From assembly GCF_000423065.1 (NCBI RefSeq), contig NZ_AUHG01000011.1, forward strand, positions 806,001-870,000: a stretch of DNA of 64,000 bases, in the 5' to 3' direction. This stretch comes from Christiangramia echinicola DSM 19838 (GTDB lineage: Bacteria > Bacteroidota > Bacteroidia > Flavobacteriales > Flavobacteriaceae). Positions within the stretch are counted from its first letter, which is position 1. Each line of letters opens with the position of its first letter. This document shows positions 28,662-35,119 of the stretch, piece by piece. The position numbers and the translations under genes were made by a program. The notes under the pieces were generated by a model. That model did no database searches, was not told the origin of the DNA, and was given only the letters and a program-made list of their open reading frames with translations.

Positions 28662-30125
28662 ATGAATAAAGACAATATAAAGAATTTAGGAGATCTCAAG
28701 AAAGCAGGTTATGAATCCAAAAGCATAAAAGATGAGCTTAGAGATAATCTGAAAATAAAGATAAGGAATGGTGAAAATGCTTTTGAAGGTATTCATGGAT
28801 ATGATTATACGGTAATACCTGAACTTGAAAGAGCTATTCTATCCCGTCATAATATTAACCTTCTAGGCCTTCGAGGTCAGGCGAAAACGAGACTGGCCAG
28901 GCTAATGGTACAACTTTTGGATGAATGGATTCCAACTATCGAAGGTTCAGAGATCAACGATGACCCGTTGAAACCTATAAGCAGATTTGCCAAAGATCTT
29001 ATAAGTGCCAAAGGAGATGACACTCCTGTTTCCTGGATTCACAGAGAAGAGCGGTTTTTTGAAAAGCTGGCCACTCCAGATGTTACCGTAGCCGATCTTA
29101 TTGGAGATGTAGATCCTATTAAAGCTGCAAATCTTAAGTTAAGTTATGCAGACGATCGGGTGATCCATTACGGAATGATCCCTCGCGCGAACAGAAGTAT
29201 TTTTGTGATCAATGAATTACCAGATCTACAGGCCAGGATTCAGGTGGCTCTTTTCAATATACTACAGGAAGGGGATATTCAAATTAGAGGATTTAAATTA
29301 CGATTACCTTTAGATATGCAGTTTGTATTTACGGCGAATCCTGAAGATTATACTAATCGTGGTAGTATTGTAACGCCTTTAAAAGACAGGATAGGTTCCC
29401 AGATCCTGACGCATTATCCTGAAAGTATTGAAATAGCTAAAGTTATAACTTCTCAGGAAGCACATTTAGATGAGCGGCAGAGAGATATCATACATGTGCC
29501 TGAAACTGCGAAGGATCTTCTAGAACAGATAAGTTTTGAAGCGCGGGATAGTGAATTTATAGACCATAAAAGTGGGGTAAGCGCCAGGATGAGTATTACT
29601 GCTTTTGAGAATCTATTGAGTACAGCTGAAAGAAGGGCCATCAAGAATGGAGAAGAGGAAACTCTGCTTAGATTTGGAGATTTTCTTGGAGTGATACCTT
29701 CTATTACCGGTAAAGTAGAATTGGTTTATGAAGGGGAGCAGGAGGGAGCTGTTTTTGTAGCTCTTCAGTTAATTGGCGATGCAGTAAAATCTTTATTTCC
29801 TGATTATTTTCCGAAGATTGAAAAGCTTCAAAAGCCAGATGCGACCACACCATATGATGATTTAATCGAATGGTTCTTTGAAAGTTCAGGTTTTGAACTT
29901 CCAGATGATCTTCCGGATGCTGATTATAAGGAAAAATTAGATTCGATAGCACCTTTGAATAAACTCCTAGAAAAGTATCAGCCAGAACTCAAGGAGGAGG
30001 ATAAATACTTTATGAAGGAGTTCTTATTATGGGCACTTGTAGAGCATAAAAAACTCAGCAAACAGAGATTTTCCAAAGGCCTTCAATTTAAAGATCTCTA
30101 TGGAAGCTATATAAGCGGCCTATAA
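28662..30125 (+). CDS. MoxR/ChlI-like AAA+ ATPase
   Basis: The start at ATG 28662 (MNKDNIKNLGDLKKAGY) is chosen because it avoids overlap with the VWA gene; TTG 28608 and ATG 28617 would overlap it. The protein has 487 residues with Walker A LLGLRGQAKTR (K75), the Walker B-like IFVINELPDL, sensor motif FTANPEDY and an arginine-containing PLKDR loop. It acts with the VWA partner just upstream as a putative ATP-driven chaperone. A strong terminator follows after 27 bases, so the two genes form a unit. Confidence 0.87.
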   Translation: MNKDNIKNLGDLKKAGYESKSIKDELRDNLKIKIRNGENAFEGIHGYDYTVIPELERAILSRHNINLLGLRGQAKTRLARLMVQLLDEWIPTIEGSEINDDPLKPISRFAKDLISAKGDDTPVSWIHREERFFEKLATPDVTVADLIGDVDPIKAANLKLSYADDRVIHYGMIPRANRSIFVINELPDLQARIQVALFNILQEGDIQIRGFKLRLPLDMQFVFTANPEDYTNRGSIVTPLKDRIGSQILTHYPESIEIAKVITSQEAHLDERQRDIIHVPETAKDLLEQISFEARDSEFIDHKSGVSARMSITAFENLLSTAERRAIKNGEEETLLRFGDFLGVIPSITGKVELVYEGEQEGAVFVALQLIGDAVKSLFPDYFPKIEKLQKPDATTPYDDLIEWFFESSGFELPDDLPDADYKEKLDSIAPLNKLLEKYQPELKEEDKYFMKEFLLWALVEHKKLSKQRFSKGLQFKDLYGSYISGL

Positions 30126-30152
30126 AACCTGAATCATATATATCTAAAAAAC

Positions 30153-30182
30153 AACCCGATAAAATCAATTATCGGGTTTTTT
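30153..30182 (+). terminator. Rho-independent terminator of the VWA-AAA operon
   Basis: AACCCGATAA (30153-30162), a 6-base loop, TTATCGGGTT (30169-30178), then Ts. The stem has ten perfect pairs. Confidence 0.92.
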
Positions 30183-30235
30183 GTGGGTTTAAATTATGAA
30201 TTTGATAATTTTCAACCTGAATTAAAGAAAAAATT

Positions 30236-30264
30236 TTGTCGCTAAATTAAATTGAATACCTTTA
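30236..30264 (+). promoter_or_regulatory. Probable thr operon promoter
   Basis: TTG at 30236-30238 and TACCTTTA at 30257-30264, with an 18-base spacer, fit the Bacteroidota TTG / TAnnTTTG consensus except for the last base. The transcript would start about 23 bases before the leader peptide GTG. Pattern match only. Confidence 0.45.
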
Positions 30265-30286
30265 AAAAACTTATCGAGAAAAAATC

Positions 30287-30400
30287 GTGAAAGAACTTCA
30301 AATAAATAACAATAGAACTGCCGGAAATGAAAATTTCCGAATGCTTTCTATTGCTATCACGATTACGCGTATTACCCCTTTTGGGGTCCTTACTATATAA
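30287..30400 (+). CDS. thrL: Threonine operon leader peptide (Thr/Ile-rich)
   Basis: A 37-codon frame runs from GTG 30287 to TAA 30398-30400, lying 56 bases before thrA. Its second half reads MLSIAITITRITPFGVLTI: nine of these 19 residues are Thr or Ile, with ATT/ATC/ACG/ACC/ACT/ATA codons clustered at 30350-30397. This is the hallmark of a leader whose translation slows when charged tRNA-Thr or tRNA-Ile is scarce, which would let transcription continue into thrABC. A shorter form starting at ATG 30341 is possible. The symbol is by analogy with enterobacterial thrL; no homology to it is claimed. Confidence 0.75.
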   Translation: MKELQINNNRTAGNENFRMLSIAITITRITPFGVLTI

Positions 30401-30406
30401 TTTCCG
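30322..30406 (+). promoter_or_regulatory. Candidate attenuator RNA with mutually exclusive pairings
   Basis: CGGAAAT (30322-30328) can pair with ATTTCCG at 30333-30339, forming a 7-pair stem with a GAAA tetraloop, or with an identical ATTTCCG at 30400-30406 just after the leader stop. A further hairpin, ACCCC-TTTT-GGGGT (30374-30387), lies over the end of the leader. In addition ATCGTGA around the leader start (30284-30290) is complementary to TCACGAT within the Ile/Thr codons (30357-30363). The arrangement could switch with ribosome position. No classic U-tract follows the GC hairpin, so the mechanism (termination or translation) is open. Confidence 0.5.
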
Positions 30407-30456
30407 TCCGCACCAGTATATTTAATTTTATATAAATCTTATAAACAATTTCAGTT

Positions 30457-32904
30457 ATGTATATCCTGAAATTTGGTGGTTCATCTTTGGCCACCTCAGA
30501 GCGCATTAAGCTAGTCTCTAAAACAATTCAAGAACACTTAAAACAGGATGCTGTGATTTCAGTATTTTCGGCATTTGGGGGTGTTACCAACGATCTATTG
30601 TTGATGGCAGAACTAGCGGCTAAAGAAGATCTAAGTTACAAGGAAATCCTCGAAAGAAACGAAAAGAGACATCTGGAAGTGGTTAGGGATCTTATTCCTG
30701 TGACCGCTCAAAGTAGTATTCTAAGTAAGGTCAAGAATCAGTTCAATAGACTGGAAACTCTTTATGAAGGGGTTTATCTTTTAAATGAACTTTCAGATAA
30801 GACCAGGCATGTAATCTCCGGATTCGGTGAAATTTTAAGCTCATTGATCATTGCTGAATACTTTAAAAGTCTGCAACTTGACAGCCTTTTTACAGATACA
30901 AGAGAACTGATTGTTTGTAAAAATAATAATGAAAAGGTTCTGGTTAATTACGAGGTCACCAATTCCAACCTGAAAGAATTTTTTAATAGCAATAAAGCCG
31001 AGTTCTATATTGTTCCAGGTTTTGTGGCGAGAAACGATCAGGGGGTACTCAGTACATTAGGCAGAGGTGGATCAGATTTTACCGCGGCTATTATTGCCGG
31101 AGCTCTGGATCTGGATAAAGTCTTAATTTATACTGATGTGAACGGCATGTTCACGGCCAACCCAAATCTTGTACCGCAGGCTTATTCCCTCAAAGATATC
31201 TCTTATGAAGAGGCGATGGAGCTTTCTCATTTTGGAGCCAAGGTGCTTTATCCTCCAACATTACAACCTTTGCTGGATAAGAATATAGAGATCCATATAA
31301 AAAATACCTTTGACCCGGAACATCCCGGGACGGTCATCTCAAAATCCAGTAAGAAAAATTTTCGCTGGGTAACCGGGATCACTCATATAGACGCTATTAA
31401 ACTTTTGAATATTGAAGGTAGTGGAATGGTGGGCATTCCAGGTTTCTCTAAAAGGTTTTTTGAAATCCTGTTTCAGGAGCATATAAATGTTGTTTTGATC
31501 ACCCAGGCTTCTTCTGAACATAGTATCTGTATCGCCGTTAAAGCTGATGAAGCTGAAAAAGCGAGGGAAGCTTTAAACGAAGCCTTTGAAGCCGAAATAG
31601 CATTCAAGAAAATCAAACCGGTAGAAATTGAGGAAAATGTTTCTATTATCGCCCTGGTCGGAGATAGGATGAAAAGCCACCATGGTCTAAGCGGAAAAAT
31701 GTTTAGTGCTCTCGGGAATAATAATATCAATATAAGAGCTATAGCGCAGGGATCTTCAGAAAGGAATATATCTGCCGTCATCGCCAAAAAAGATGTCACT
31801 AAAGCTCTTAATACGCTTCATGAGCAGTTCTTTGAAGTGCCTTCTAAAGAATTGAACTTATATATTACCGGAGTTGGAAATGTAGGTAGTAAATTGTTAG
31901 AGCAATTGAAAAAGCAGGAAAGCTACTTACTTGATAAATTAAGATTAAAAGTGCGGGTGCTGGCAGTTTCAAATTCCAGGAAGATGCTTTTTAATGAAGA
32001 TGGGATAGATCTCAACAATTGGAAGAAATCTCTGGAAAATGGGGAGAAGGCCAATAAGAAAACGTTCTTTCAAAGAGTTAAAGAATACAACCTTCGTAAT
32101 AGCATTTTTGTAGATAATACTGCAAGCCCTGATATTTCTGAATGGTATAAGGAATATCTGGCGAATTCAATTTCGGTGGTGACCTGTAATAAAATTGCCT
32201 GTGCAGATGCATTTGAGAATTATGAAAATCTGCAAAATCTGGCCCGGGAATATGGAGCCTCTTTTATGTACGAAACTAATGTGGGAGCTGGACTACCAAT
32301 TATAGATACTTTACAGAATCTGATGGCTTCTGGGGACAGGATCAGGAAAATTCAGGCGGTACTTTCAGGAAGTTTAAATTTTGTATTCAACAATTATGAT
32401 GCTACAGAACCATTTTATAAAGTAGTAGAAACTGCAATGAAAGAAGGTTTTACCGAACCAGATCCTAAGATAGATCTAAGTGGGGTAGACGTGGCCAGGA
32501 AAATATTGATCCTTTCCCGTGAAAGCGGACATAGATTAGAACTGGAGGATATTGAGAGAGATAATTTCCTTTCAGAAGAAAGTCTCAATTCAGAAAACAA
32601 TGAAGAATTCTTTAGATTATTGAAAGAAGATGAACCAGAGTTTGCTAAAATTTATAAAGATGCAGTGAGCGAAAAGTCAGAATTAAAATATGTGGCTCAG
32701 TTGGAAAACGGCCAGGCAAAAGTCGGACTTCAAAAGGTAGGTGAACATCATCCTTTTGCCAATCTTAGCGGAAGCGATAATATTGTGCTGTTCTTTACTG
32801 AAAGATATCCTGAGCAACCTTTGATCGTTAAAGGAGCAGGAGCAGGAGCAGATGTAACGGCCTCAGGGATCTTCGCTGATATTATACGAATAGGAAAGAA
32901 GTAG
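30457..32904 (+). CDS. thrA: Bifunctional aspartate kinase / homoserine dehydrogenase
   Basis: This 815-residue protein is the fused enzyme typical of ThrA. The aspartokinase domain (about 1-290) starts MYILKFGGSSLAT and has GRGGSDFTAA. ACT-type regulatory segments (about 310-460) include NINIRAIAQGSSERNIS. The homoserine dehydrogenase domain (470-815) starts YITGVGNVGSKLL and contains ETNVGAGLP. It catalyses the first and third steps of the aspartate pathway; Thr feedback through the ACT region is usual. It heads thrABC and is preceded by the Thr/Ile leader peptide. Confidence 0.96.
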   Translation: MYILKFGGSSLATSERIKLVSKTIQEHLKQDAVISVFSAFGGVTNDLLLMAELAAKEDLSYKEILERNEKRHLEVVRDLIPVTAQSSILSKVKNQFNRLETLYEGVYLLNELSDKTRHVISGFGEILSSLIIAEYFKSLQLDSLFTDTRELIVCKNNNEKVLVNYEVTNSNLKEFFNSNKAEFYIVPGFVARNDQGVLSTLGRGGSDFTAAIIAGALDLDKVLIYTDVNGMFTANPNLVPQAYSLKDISYEEAMELSHFGAKVLYPPTLQPLLDKNIEIHIKNTFDPEHPGTVISKSSKKNFRWVTGITHIDAIKLLNIEGSGMVGIPGFSKRFFEILFQEHINVVLITQASSEHSICIAVKADEAEKAREALNEAFEAEIAFKKIKPVEIEENVSIIALVGDRMKSHHGLSGKMFSALGNNNINIRAIAQGSSERNISAVIAKKDVTKALNTLHEQFFEVPSKELNLYITGVGNVGSKLLEQLKKQESYLLDKLRLKVRVLAVSNSRKMLFNEDGIDLNNWKKSLENGEKANKKTFFQRVKEYNLRNSIFVDNTASPDISEWYKEYLANSISVVTCNKIACADAFENYENLQNLAREYGASFMYETNVGAGLPIIDTLQNLMASGDRIRKIQAVLSGSLNFVFNNYDATEPFYKVVETAMKEGFTEPDPKIDLSGVDVARKILILSRESGHRLELEDIERDNFLSEESLNSENNEEFFRLLKEDEPEFAKIYKDAVSEKSELKYVAQLENGQAKVGLQKVGEHHPFANLSGSDNIVLFFTERYPEQPLIVKGAGAGADVTASGIFADIIRIGKK

Positions 32905-32906
32905 TT

Positions 32907-33827
32907 ATGGAAGAATTAAAGATTTTCGCGCCAGCAACTGTAGCTAATCTTTCCTGCGGGTTTGATGTACTGGGATGTTGTCTGGATTCTGTTGGCGATG
33001 AAATGCTCATTAAAAAGAATGATCTAAAGGAAGTAAGAATTACAAGAATTACCGGTCAGGACTTACCTATGGAAGCAGATAAGAATGTAGCAAGTGTAGC
33101 TGTAAAAGCGCTGTTAGAACAAATAAAATCAGACCAGGGATTCGATATAGAAATTGATAAAAAGATCAAGCCGGGAAGCGGAATAGGTAGTAGTGCTGCA
33201 AGTTCTGCAGGAGCAGTGTTTGCGGCGAATAAACTATTAGGAGAGCCTTTTAAGAATAAGGACCTAATTTCTTTTGCCATGCAGGGAGAGCTTCTGGCCA
33301 GTGGGAATGCCCACGCAGATAATGTTGCTCCGGCCTTATTAGGCGGTTTTAGCCTGGTTCGAAGTTATTGCCCACTGGAAGTTTTAAGCTTACCGGTACC
33401 TGAGGAATTGAGGGTGGTCATACTACATCCTTTGATCGAAATCAAGACTAAAGATTCAAGATCCATCATTAAACAAAATGTAAGTTTAAAGTCGGCGATC
33501 AATCAATGGGGAAATTTAGGAGCTCTGGTAAGTGCACTTTATACTGAAGATTATGATCTGTTAGGCCGAAGTTTACATGATGATATAGTAGAGCCGGTAA
33601 GATCTATTTTGATCCCGTATTTTAAGGAGCTGGATGAACTGGTAACTAAAAATGGTGCTTTAGGTTTCGGGATTTCAGGATCAGGGCCTTCAGTTTTTGC
33701 TTTATGCCGGGGTGATGAAAATGCGAATAAGGTTAAAAATGTCATTTCAGAATTTTATTCAGATAAAGAAATTGACTTTGAATTACACCTTTCATCTATT
33801 AATAAAAAAGGAGTGAAAATCTTATGA
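32907..33827 (+). CDS. thrB: Homoserine kinase
   Basis: This 306-residue GHMP-family kinase starts KIFAPATVANLSCGFDVLG, has the ATP-binding glycine/serine loop PGSGIGSSAASSAG, and the C-terminal GISGSGPSVFAL motif. It phosphorylates homoserine for threonine synthase. It starts 2 bases after thrA and overlaps thrC by 4 bases (ATGA), so the operon is translationally coupled. Confidence 0.95.
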   Translation: MEELKIFAPATVANLSCGFDVLGCCLDSVGDEMLIKKNDLKEVRITRITGQDLPMEADKNVASVAVKALLEQIKSDQGFDIEIDKKIKPGSGIGSSAASSAGAVFAANKLLGEPFKNKDLISFAMQGELLASGNAHADNVAPALLGGFSLVRSYCPLEVLSLPVPEELRVVILHPLIEIKTKDSRSIIKQNVSLKSAINQWGNLGALVSALYTEDYDLLGRSLHDDIVEPVRSILIPYFKELDELVTKNGALGFGISGSGPSVFALCRGDENANKVKNVISEFYSDKEIDFELHLSSINKKGVKIL

Positions 33828-35119
33828 GGTATTTCAGTTTAAATGATAGAAGTCACACAAGTAGTTTTGAAAATGCAGTGGTTAAAGGCCTGGCACCAGA
33901 CAAAGGACTCTATTTCCCGGAAGAGATCGTAAAACTATCTGCTTCGTTTATTAAGGATCTGCAAAATTTGGATAAAACAGAGATCGCCTTCCGGGCTATA
34001 AAGGAATATGTAGGAAGTGAAATTCCAGACTCAGGCCTTATAGATATTATCAATGAAACCCTGGATTTTGAATTTCCGGTGGTAAAAATTACCAATGATA
34101 TAGGCAGTCTTGAATTATTTCATGGTCCTACCCTGGCTTTTAAAGACGTGGGAGCGAGGTTCATGGCCGGTAGCCTGGGTTATTTTATTAACAAAGGTAA
34201 TTTAGGAAAGATCACTGTTCTGGTAGCAACATCAGGGGATACTGGTGGCGCGGTAGCAAATGGATTTCTTGGGGTAGAGGGAATAGATGTGGTAATTCTA
34301 TATCCTAAAGGAAAAGTAAGTGATATACAGGAGAAGCAGCTAACCACTCTAGAGCAAAATATCACCGCCATAGAGGTAGATGGAGTTTTTGATGACTGTC
34401 AAAGAATGGTTAAACGTGCTTTTTTAGATACTGATATTACAGAAAAGCGCAAATTAACTTCTGCAAATTCTATTAATGTGGCCAGGTGGTTGCCTCAGAT
34501 GTTCTATTATTTCCTTGCCTATAAACAGCTTCAGGGAAAAGATAAAAAGCTGGTTTTTTCTGTTCCAAGTGGTAACTTCGGAAATATATGTGCAGGGATG
34601 CTGGCCAGAGAAATGGGATTGCCTATAGATCATTTTGTAGCAGCCAATAATTCTAACGATACAGTCACTAATTATCTGGAGACTTCAGAATATAGATCAA
34701 AACCAAGTGTTCCAACCATTTCTAACGCTATGGATGTGGGAGATCCAAGCAATTTTGTTAGGGTACTGGAATTATTTGATAATAAATATTCCTCTCTAAA
34801 GGATGCTCTATCAGGATATAGCTTTGATGATTCCCAAACTAAAGAGGCAATTAAGGAGGTATATTCTAAAACCGGATATATAATGGATCCTCATGGTGCA
34901 GTTGGCTACCTGGGACTTCAGGAATATTTAAAAGGTAAGAAAGGATATTACGGAACTTTCCTGGAAACAGCACATCCAGTGAAGTTCCTGGATACTGTAG
35001 AAGAAGTGATTGGTAAGAAAGTTGCGATTCCTGATTCTATCAAACATTTAATGGATAAAGAAAAAAATTCCCTTCAAATCAGCAGTTACGAAGATCTAAA
35101 GGGATATTTATTAAGTTAG
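33824..35119 (+). CDS. thrC: Threonine synthase
   Basis: This 431-residue PLP enzyme begins with a typical threonine synthase N-terminal domain (MRYFSLNDRSHTSSFENAVVKGL). The Schiff-base lysine is K107 in GPTLAFKDVGARF, followed by LVATSGDTGGAVANG and SVPSGNFGNICAG, which bind PLP phosphate. It converts O-phosphohomoserine to threonine, the last step of the operon. Its stop is 7 bases from the convergent S10 peptidase stop; no terminator hairpin is evident. Confidence 0.95.
   Translation: MRYFSLNDRSHTSSFENAVVKGLAPDKGLYFPEEIVKLSASFIKDLQNLDKTEIAFRAIKEYVGSEIPDSGLIDIINETLDFEFPVVKITNDIGSLELFHGPTLAFKDVGARFMAGSLGYFINKGNLGKITVLVATSGDTGGAVANGFLGVEGIDVVILYPKGKVSDIQEKQLTTLEQNITAIEVDGVFDDCQRMVKRAFLDTDITEKRKLTSANSINVARWLPQMFYYFLAYKQLQGKDKKLVFSVPSGNFGNICAGMLAREMGLPIDHFVAANNSNDTVTNYLETSEYRSKPSVPTISNAMDVGDPSNFVRVLELFDNKYSSLKDALSGYSFDDSQTKEAIKEVYSKTGYIMDPHGAVGYLGLQEYLKGKKGYYGTFLETAHPVKFLDTVEEVIGKKVAIPDSIKHLMDKEKNSLQISSYEDLKGYLLS

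Follow-up and report, generated by a model that had tools for sequence, protein, structure and literature searches.

Leader-peptide attenuation is textbook knowledge for enterobacteria, where the thr attenuator (thrL; Thr_leader in Rfam) places a Thr/Ile-rich leader before thrABC. In Christiangramia echinicola DSM 19838, the 64,000-nt stretch analysed here (the window) carries a short frame rich in Thr and Ile codons in front of thrA, and this locus raises two questions: is the frame a leader gene, and how would the position of a ribosome on it be read out? An earlier reading of the letters alone had suggested an analogous but differently built switch with no obvious U-tract terminator. The leader, its different build and the missing U-tract are borne out below, while the proposed hairpin switch is not, since its second pairing lies at the level of shuffled sequences. 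On the comparative evidence we favour, with fair confidence, a ribosome-mediated attenuator of thrABC that would sense charged Thr (and Ile) tRNA and be read out without a terminator or competing hairpins.

A Thr/Ile-rich leader frame before thrABC

The thrA, thrB and thrC products all exceed their NCBIfam cut-offs (Table 1). The sequence-only reading placed a 37-codon GTG-started frame 56 bases before the thrA ATG at 30457, counted nine Thr or Ile among the last 19 codons (MLSIAITITRITPFGVLTI), and noted that the 8-base AATTTCCG occurs at 30332-30339 and again at 30399-30406; all of this is exact. It missed three elements: a hairpin at the leader end (P2), a conserved motif behind it (M) and a promoter-like site. 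The latter resembles TTTG/TAnnTTTG, which we take to be the Bacteroidota promoter consensus, and would put the transcription start about 20 nt before the leader gene. The region as a whole (30270-30480) has a more favourable fold than dinucleotide-shuffled sequence (z -3.5), matched by 1 shuffle of 200.

Table 1. Features of the thr locus (window coordinates)
Feature	Position	Strand	Remarks
Promoter-like TTTTG-N18-TACCTTTA	30234..30264	+	from the sequence; -7 box has a final A instead of G
Leader peptide gene VKELQINNNRTAGNENFRMLSIAITITRITPFGVLTI	30287..30400	+	37 codons; start GTG 30287-30289, stop TAA 30398-30400
P1 hairpin CGGAAAT-GAAA-ATTTCCG, inside leader gene	30322..30339	+	CGGAAAT 30322-30328, GAAA 30329-30332, ATTTCCG 30333-30339; covariation vs shuffles
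P2 hairpin ACCCC-TTTT-GGGGT (ACCCCTTTTGGGGT)	30374..30387	+	perfect; overlaps the leader's last-but-one Thr codon
Motif M, TATATAATTTCCGTCCGC	30394..30411	+	conserved, unpaired; contains second AATTTCCG
thrA, bifunctional aspartate kinase/homoserine dehydrogenase I	30457..32904	+	NF006959, 1054.6 bits, cut-off 726
thrB, homoserine kinase	32907..33827	+	TIGR00191, 239.5 bits, cut-off 168.25
thrC, threonine synthase	33824..35119	+	TIGR00260, 291.7 bits, cut-off 167.1

Using ThrA as query, we collected upstream regions in four sets: 19 named loci with a gene start (20 were retrieved, one of them incomplete), 90 Flavobacteriaceae regions at one genome per genus, 20 further genomes of the genus (21 with the window's own), and 40 regions from outside the family. 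The closest named ThrA records belong to Christiangramia/Gramella species, at 86-91% identity for the best six. The pattern ACCC-N4-6-GGGT within 350 nt of thrA, our definition of P2, was found in 16 of the 19 named loci and, together with the frame, in 76 of the 90 genera, whereas the earlier reading had named lack of conservation in relatives as the observation that would speak against a leader. Allowing another loop or last base adds three genera (L040, L041, L049), and P2 is absent even by this relaxed pattern in 11 of the 90. By eye, there seems to be little space between the end of another gene and thrA at L053, L066, L068, L100 and L113 (also L184), and no P2 is seen there. In the stretch corresponding to the promoter-like site, an exact TAnnTTTG occurs in 64 of the 76 P2-bearing genera, against 8.1 in shuffled sequences.

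In all 76 genera the frame running through P2 is open over the preceding 20 codons, giving 0.00 stops per 20 codons compared with 1.21 and 0.74 in the other two frames. Thr and Ile make up on average 39% of these 20 codons (8% and 5% for the two alternative frames), a contrast that is inflated because the frame was picked by its Thr/Ile content. The last 22 leader codons hold 4 to 13 Thr/Ile, with only 4-5 in four of the 76 genera. With the start codon chosen to give a length closest to 35 codons, the median leader has 34 codons and begins with ATG in 68 of 76 genera (GTG in the window); in 67 of 76 the leader stop falls between -7 and +3 relative to where P2 ends, and in the window 10 nt past it. 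The peptide itself is poorly conserved across genera, and within the genus the codon-position bias is slight (0.36, 0.42, 0.43; for the last 12 codons 0.36, 0.26, 0.43). A small frame ending near ITPFGV had been expected in relatives: the frame is kept and so is the hairpin underlying its end, but the peptide end is not (ITPLG*, TTLWGC* or TTP* elsewhere). Its open frame and Thr/Ile content make it very likely that the thr leader is a genuine, ribosome-translated leader gene, and it probably senses threonine supply.

Hairpins of the leader and the unpaired motif M

The letters of P2 are read in different frames in different genera (TPLG, TTLWG), and in three loci from another family of the class (L146, L149, L151) the hairpin is turned to ACGGG-loop-CCCGT, with the stop codon in its loop. 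Because the frames differ and the C-G pairs are turned in these three loci, P2 is a feature of the RNA and not a by-product of peptide conservation. Among 22 Flavobacterium-like genera, picked for covariation analysis because they can be aligned, four of its five pairs never vary. For 25 close relatives the RNAalifold consensus consists of P2 plus a 2-bp stem within thrA; neither P1 nor a third hairpin, P3, described below, is part of it. Two P2-like sites exist elsewhere in the genome (L055 and L057/L058), both unrelated.

Downstream of P2, an EM motif search recovered M (ATATATTCTTCCG-like) with a log-likelihood of 248, compared with 36-45 for shuffled input. M starts 6-12 nt past P2 in 70 of the 76 genera and exactly 8 nt past it in 33. 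Predicted pairing across M (D+12 to D+22) is 0.29-0.34 as opposed to 0.42-0.44 in shuffled sequences, and M seems to be kept single-stranded. With up to three mismatches, three M-like sites turned up elsewhere in the genome (L120, L121, L122); they are unrelated and none has a leader-end hairpin. We also considered M as a promoter and rejected this by eye, the spacing to the TTTG in P2 being unsuitable.

P1 corresponds to the first pairing of the sequence-only reading, CGGAAAT with ATTTCCG across a GAAA loop, and it holds up in comparison. In a set of 23 distinct sequences from the genus and its neighbours, the pairs of P1 form in 60.2% of cells versus 47.0% after shuffling (0 of 500 shuffles as high), with 18 double-changed cells versus 11.4 (11/500). 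In the columns of the window, seven outgroup rows (L012, L014, L015, L017, L018, L022, L026) form no more than 2-3 of the seven pairs; by eye, several have a hairpin in another register (CTCCT/AGGAG in L015), and other genera carry hairpins of other sequence at this place. A base-pair map averaged over 75 genera gave 1.66 for P1 (U-52:U-40) against 0.31 in shuffles, 2.46 against 0.29 for P3 (D+33:D+45), and 1.00 against 0.08 for an outer helix (U-74:U-22). In the 22 Flavobacterium-like genera, P1 and P3 together show 29 double-changed cells where shuffling gives 7.6, and changes on both sides affect seven of eight pairs in P1 and four of eight in P3. In the window P3 is weak, at -1.3 kcal/mol, and the regional fold z-scores are modest (P1 -0.79, P3 -1.31, controls -0.29 to -0.49). 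An outer helix P0 around P1 was set aside for the Flavobacterium-like genera as weak (83.1% vs 79.8%, 11/500). The leader start had also been said to pair with the leader's own Ile/Thr codons; this pairing exists in the window (AATCGTGA at 30283-30290 with TCACGATT at 30357-30364) and has some covariation support, confined to the set of close relatives (78.5% vs 73.7% shuffled, 3/500).

Terminators, pairing tests and the readout

Scanning 29900-30700 for intrinsic terminators gave four sites, namely both strands of P1 (30321-30340), whose plus-strand tail AATGCTTTCT is weakly T-rich, and both strands of 30153-30178, a strong hairpin, terminator-like in both directions, that separates the thr leader from the gene before it. 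Between P2 and thrA there is none in the window, none in the 21 genomes of the genus and one among the 76 genera (L044; 0.2 in shuffles), in agreement with the earlier remark that no U-tract terminator is obvious. When P2 itself is allowed as the stem, the count remains 0 of 21 in the genus and becomes 14 of 76 across genera (13 by P2, one by the other hairpin of L044). We rejected P2 as the terminator, as its tail is no T-richer than chance: shuffling the sequence behind P2 gives 15.9 (9-21) such genera. In some genomes P2 may nevertheless act as a weak terminator, given the T-rich tails in 13 of 76 genera and in three loci outside the family (L162, L163, L165) where P2 with such a tail scored as terminator-like.

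The same scan behaved differently on other leaders. In the same genome, the his leader MRNYTVHHHHFSTHAHAR is followed by the terminator AACCCGTTTGAGCAATCAAACGGGTT-TTTTTATT and the ilv leader MITAVQNIIASIIEVLFVFENRP by AAAGCCATCTTTATAGATGGCTTT-TTTTATTT; terminator-like sites lie upstream in 16 of 16 hisG and 10 of 13 ilvD loci, counts that take in the loci of this genome. The his leader locus (L188 1200-1300, G000 contig 6, upstream of hisG) looks classical, and runs of His codons are visible by eye in other hisG loci (L185-L200). The probable ilv leader occupies L208 1132-1260 (G000 contig 2), with its terminator and then about 190 nt to ilvD.

Outside the family, a Thr/Ile-rich short frame is present in 16 of the 40 regions upstream of thrA; the opposite strand gives 1 of 40. 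By reading, eight of the 16 have P2 in its usual sense (L145, L147, L148, L150, L162-L165), three have it turned and five have a terminator (L152, L153, L155, L156, L159). CATATC, as in M, follows P2 in six of the eight, L148 and L150 being the exceptions, and the P2 type extends beyond the class (L162-L165). In the terminator-bearing leaders, the leader end is complementary over 5-8 nt to the 5' arm of the terminator (e.g. GGAGGAAG/CTTCCTCC; a candidate pairing). Both forms of thr leader therefore coexist in the phylum, and the strong terminators of L152, L153, L155 and L156 suggest that its thr leaders can act by transcription attenuation.

For the window we propose that the position of the ribosome over the Thr/Ile codons, reaching into the 5' arm of P2, would decide whether P2 folds; the anatomy follows from comparing the sequences and the dynamics are our extrapolation from it. 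With ample Thr and Ile, the ribosome would read on to its stop codon, close to the base of P2, and come off, P2 would refold, and M and the G-poor stretch behind it would lie single-stranded. A ribosome stalled beside P2 would block the hairpin. The readout would then most likely fall to a factor, or a state of the polymerase, that makes use of M being unpaired. Our first guess is Rho-dependent termination, a tentative one that is somewhat more likely to be wrong than right. The stretch after P2 is poor in G (C/G 2.24 over 76 genera vs 1.10 in 23 intergenic controls, all from the window and so from one genome) and the genome has a Rho gene, which together make Rho the first candidate; M is short and mildly C-rich (YC 9.3 vs 7.9 per 100 nt). 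The polarity poses a problem, because a ribosome stalled on Thr codons does not obviously cover M and so would not obviously spare the transcript under starvation.

A related but unlikely possibility is polymerase pausing, with P2 as the pause hairpin and M as the pause site, the arriving ribosome freeing or dislodging the polymerase. The nearly fixed distance of M past P2 (8 nt in 33 of 76 genera, 6-12 in 70) speaks for it, yet within those 70 it still varies by up to 6 nt, and the sequence data do not separate pausing from termination.

It is also improbable, in our view, that control falls on thrA translation or mRNA stability and not on transcription, with the leader ribosome altering access to the thrA start. 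The failure to find a terminator is in keeping with such control, as is the toiL uORF of E. coli, which acts on translation with Rho behind it according to the portion of the source available (PMC12121999). Pairing around the thrA start is locally enriched over 71 genera (-8 with +2, 1.45 vs 0.74; -5 with +11, 0.59 vs 0.24), and in the window AATTTCAG before the ATG is, as read from the sequence, complementary to CTGAAATT after it. On the other hand, overall pairing of the start region does not exceed what shuffling the upstream sequence gives (at 0 to +4, 0.48 vs 0.53), no enriched pairing of the start with parts of the leader was seen, and P2 ends a median of 86 nt before the start codon in the genera set. 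A hairpin over the thrA start was accordingly dropped as a general feature, the enrichment across genera being local only.

Classical competing hairpins are very unlikely. They could take two forms: CGGAAAT pairing with either copy of AATTTCCG, as the sequence-only reading had it, or the 3' arm of P2, which a stalled ribosome would leave free to form an antiterminator with M. The window does offer perfect 7-bp pairings for the first form, but the second of them is found in 59.4% of cells versus 59.6% in shuffles (equalled or exceeded in 333 of 500). This pairing is kept in near relatives and falls to three or fewer of seven pairs in L140, L143, L012, L014, L015, L017, L018, L022 and L026. The second AATTTCCG lies within M, which gives it another reason to be there. 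In L137 and L138 the P1 arms have changed to AAAGATC/GATCTTT (with one pair fewer in L138), and M keeps ATTTCCG. P1 of L140-L143 is GAAGAA/TTCTTC, with one mismatch in some; M there has turned into ATACTCG, and the pairing is not restored.

The antiterminator form looked plausible at first: once the 5' arm of P2 is made unavailable, M at D+16 becomes the favoured partner of the GGGGU arm (0.55 vs 0.21). It was ruled out by the interaction energies. Over 70 genera the arm binds its own M more weakly than Ms permuted among genera (-3.92 vs -4.31, with 99.9% of 2000 permutations lower) and more weakly than shuffled M (-4.73; 200/200), and total pairing of the arm is not above shuffles. The averaged map does show a few weak but enriched long-range pairings (U-59:D+21, 0.35 vs 0.06; U-96:D+51, 0.47 vs 0.12; U-92:D+11, 0.33 vs 0.06), of which U-59:D+21 is of the ACGGAC/GTCCGT type and belongs to one subclade. 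RNAduplex swap tests nonetheless gave mean z values of just -0.24 for upstream with M, 0.39 for M with downstream and 0.02 for upstream with downstream, that is, no general long-range pairing. Swap, arm-M and shuffle tests thus found no general, mutually exclusive antiterminator pairing, and the U-tract terminator that it would serve is missing. In one subclade (L045, L047, L051, L060, L071) the leader contains (A)CGGAC complementary to GTCCG(T) in M, a match that may be inherited rather than coevolved.

That the frame is a translated short ORF with no regulatory role, perhaps only aiding thrA expression, is scarcely credible: the poorly conserved peptide and the four Thr/Ile-poor genera would suit it, but Thr/Ile codons, matching the operon's own product, stand at the leader end over the 76 genera (4-13 in 22 codons) and P1, P2 and M are conserved.

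Relation to known attenuators

The thr leader shares with its enterobacterial counterpart a Thr/Ile-rich leader directly before thrABC and the logic of ribosome position; it differs in having, in the window, neither a U-tract terminator nor general competing hairpins, and in having P2 and an unpaired M. The his and ilv leaders of the same genome likewise put codons for the end product (His; Ile/Val) before the operon and, unlike thr, are followed by intrinsic terminators. L152, L153, L155 and L156, from another family of the class, share the Thr/Ile leader before thrA and, by their strong terminators, are of the classical type. Rfam (release 15) gave no match at gathering thresholds in the whole window or in seven loci searched; for 30220-30500 with E up to 10 it gave four matches far below their gathering scores, none of them a leader and none Thr_leader. 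In E. coli tnaC, a leader peptide is combined with Rho as executor, and the ribosome stalls at high tryptophan. The thr leader would share the leader peptide and the Rho idea, while a stall that needs high tryptophan is unlike one brought about by starvation. RF01692, which we take to be a trp leader attenuator, concerns trp and not thr. The accessible part of its source presents this Bacteroid-trp RNA as a cis-regulatory motif of Bacteroidetes (PMC2864571).

Leader peptides of actinobacterial cys operons lack a conserved terminator hairpin, and Rho was proposed for them (PMC1262725, as far as the available part goes); they concern another amino acid and phylum, and that part of the source describes no stop-codon hairpin. 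Within Flavobacteriaceae, 'strong clues' of leader attenuation at amino-acid operons have been reported for Flavobacterium psychrophilum, with elements at pheA and hisG named; the main text, in the portion available, has no match for threonine or thrA (PMC9723704). The leader-like sORFs in the accessible part of PMC7366714 do not include thr, and that of PMC2965389 has no match. Among the matches listed in our literature search, no title or abstract deals with the thr element described here. An attenuation survey of 2004 reportedly touched Bacteroidetes and may already have predicted a thr attenuator for them.

Taken more broadly, the locus may represent a type of thr attenuator widespread in Bacteroidota. 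In place of competing hairpins and a terminator, a stop-codon hairpin (P2) beside the conserved single-stranded M would convey the ribosome's position, M being recognised by a trans-acting factor or by the polymerase, and the type would coexist with classical-looking his and ilv attenuators in one genome; we put this possibility a little below an even chance. The working parts of attenuation in Bacteroidota are hardly described in the literature searched. Here, within one family, most of the genera read have a Thr/Ile leader that has no terminator and in which a hairpin and an unpaired motif have been fixed instead. With his and ilv leaders of textbook form beside the thr leader in the same genome, the organism offers a natural side-by-side comparison.
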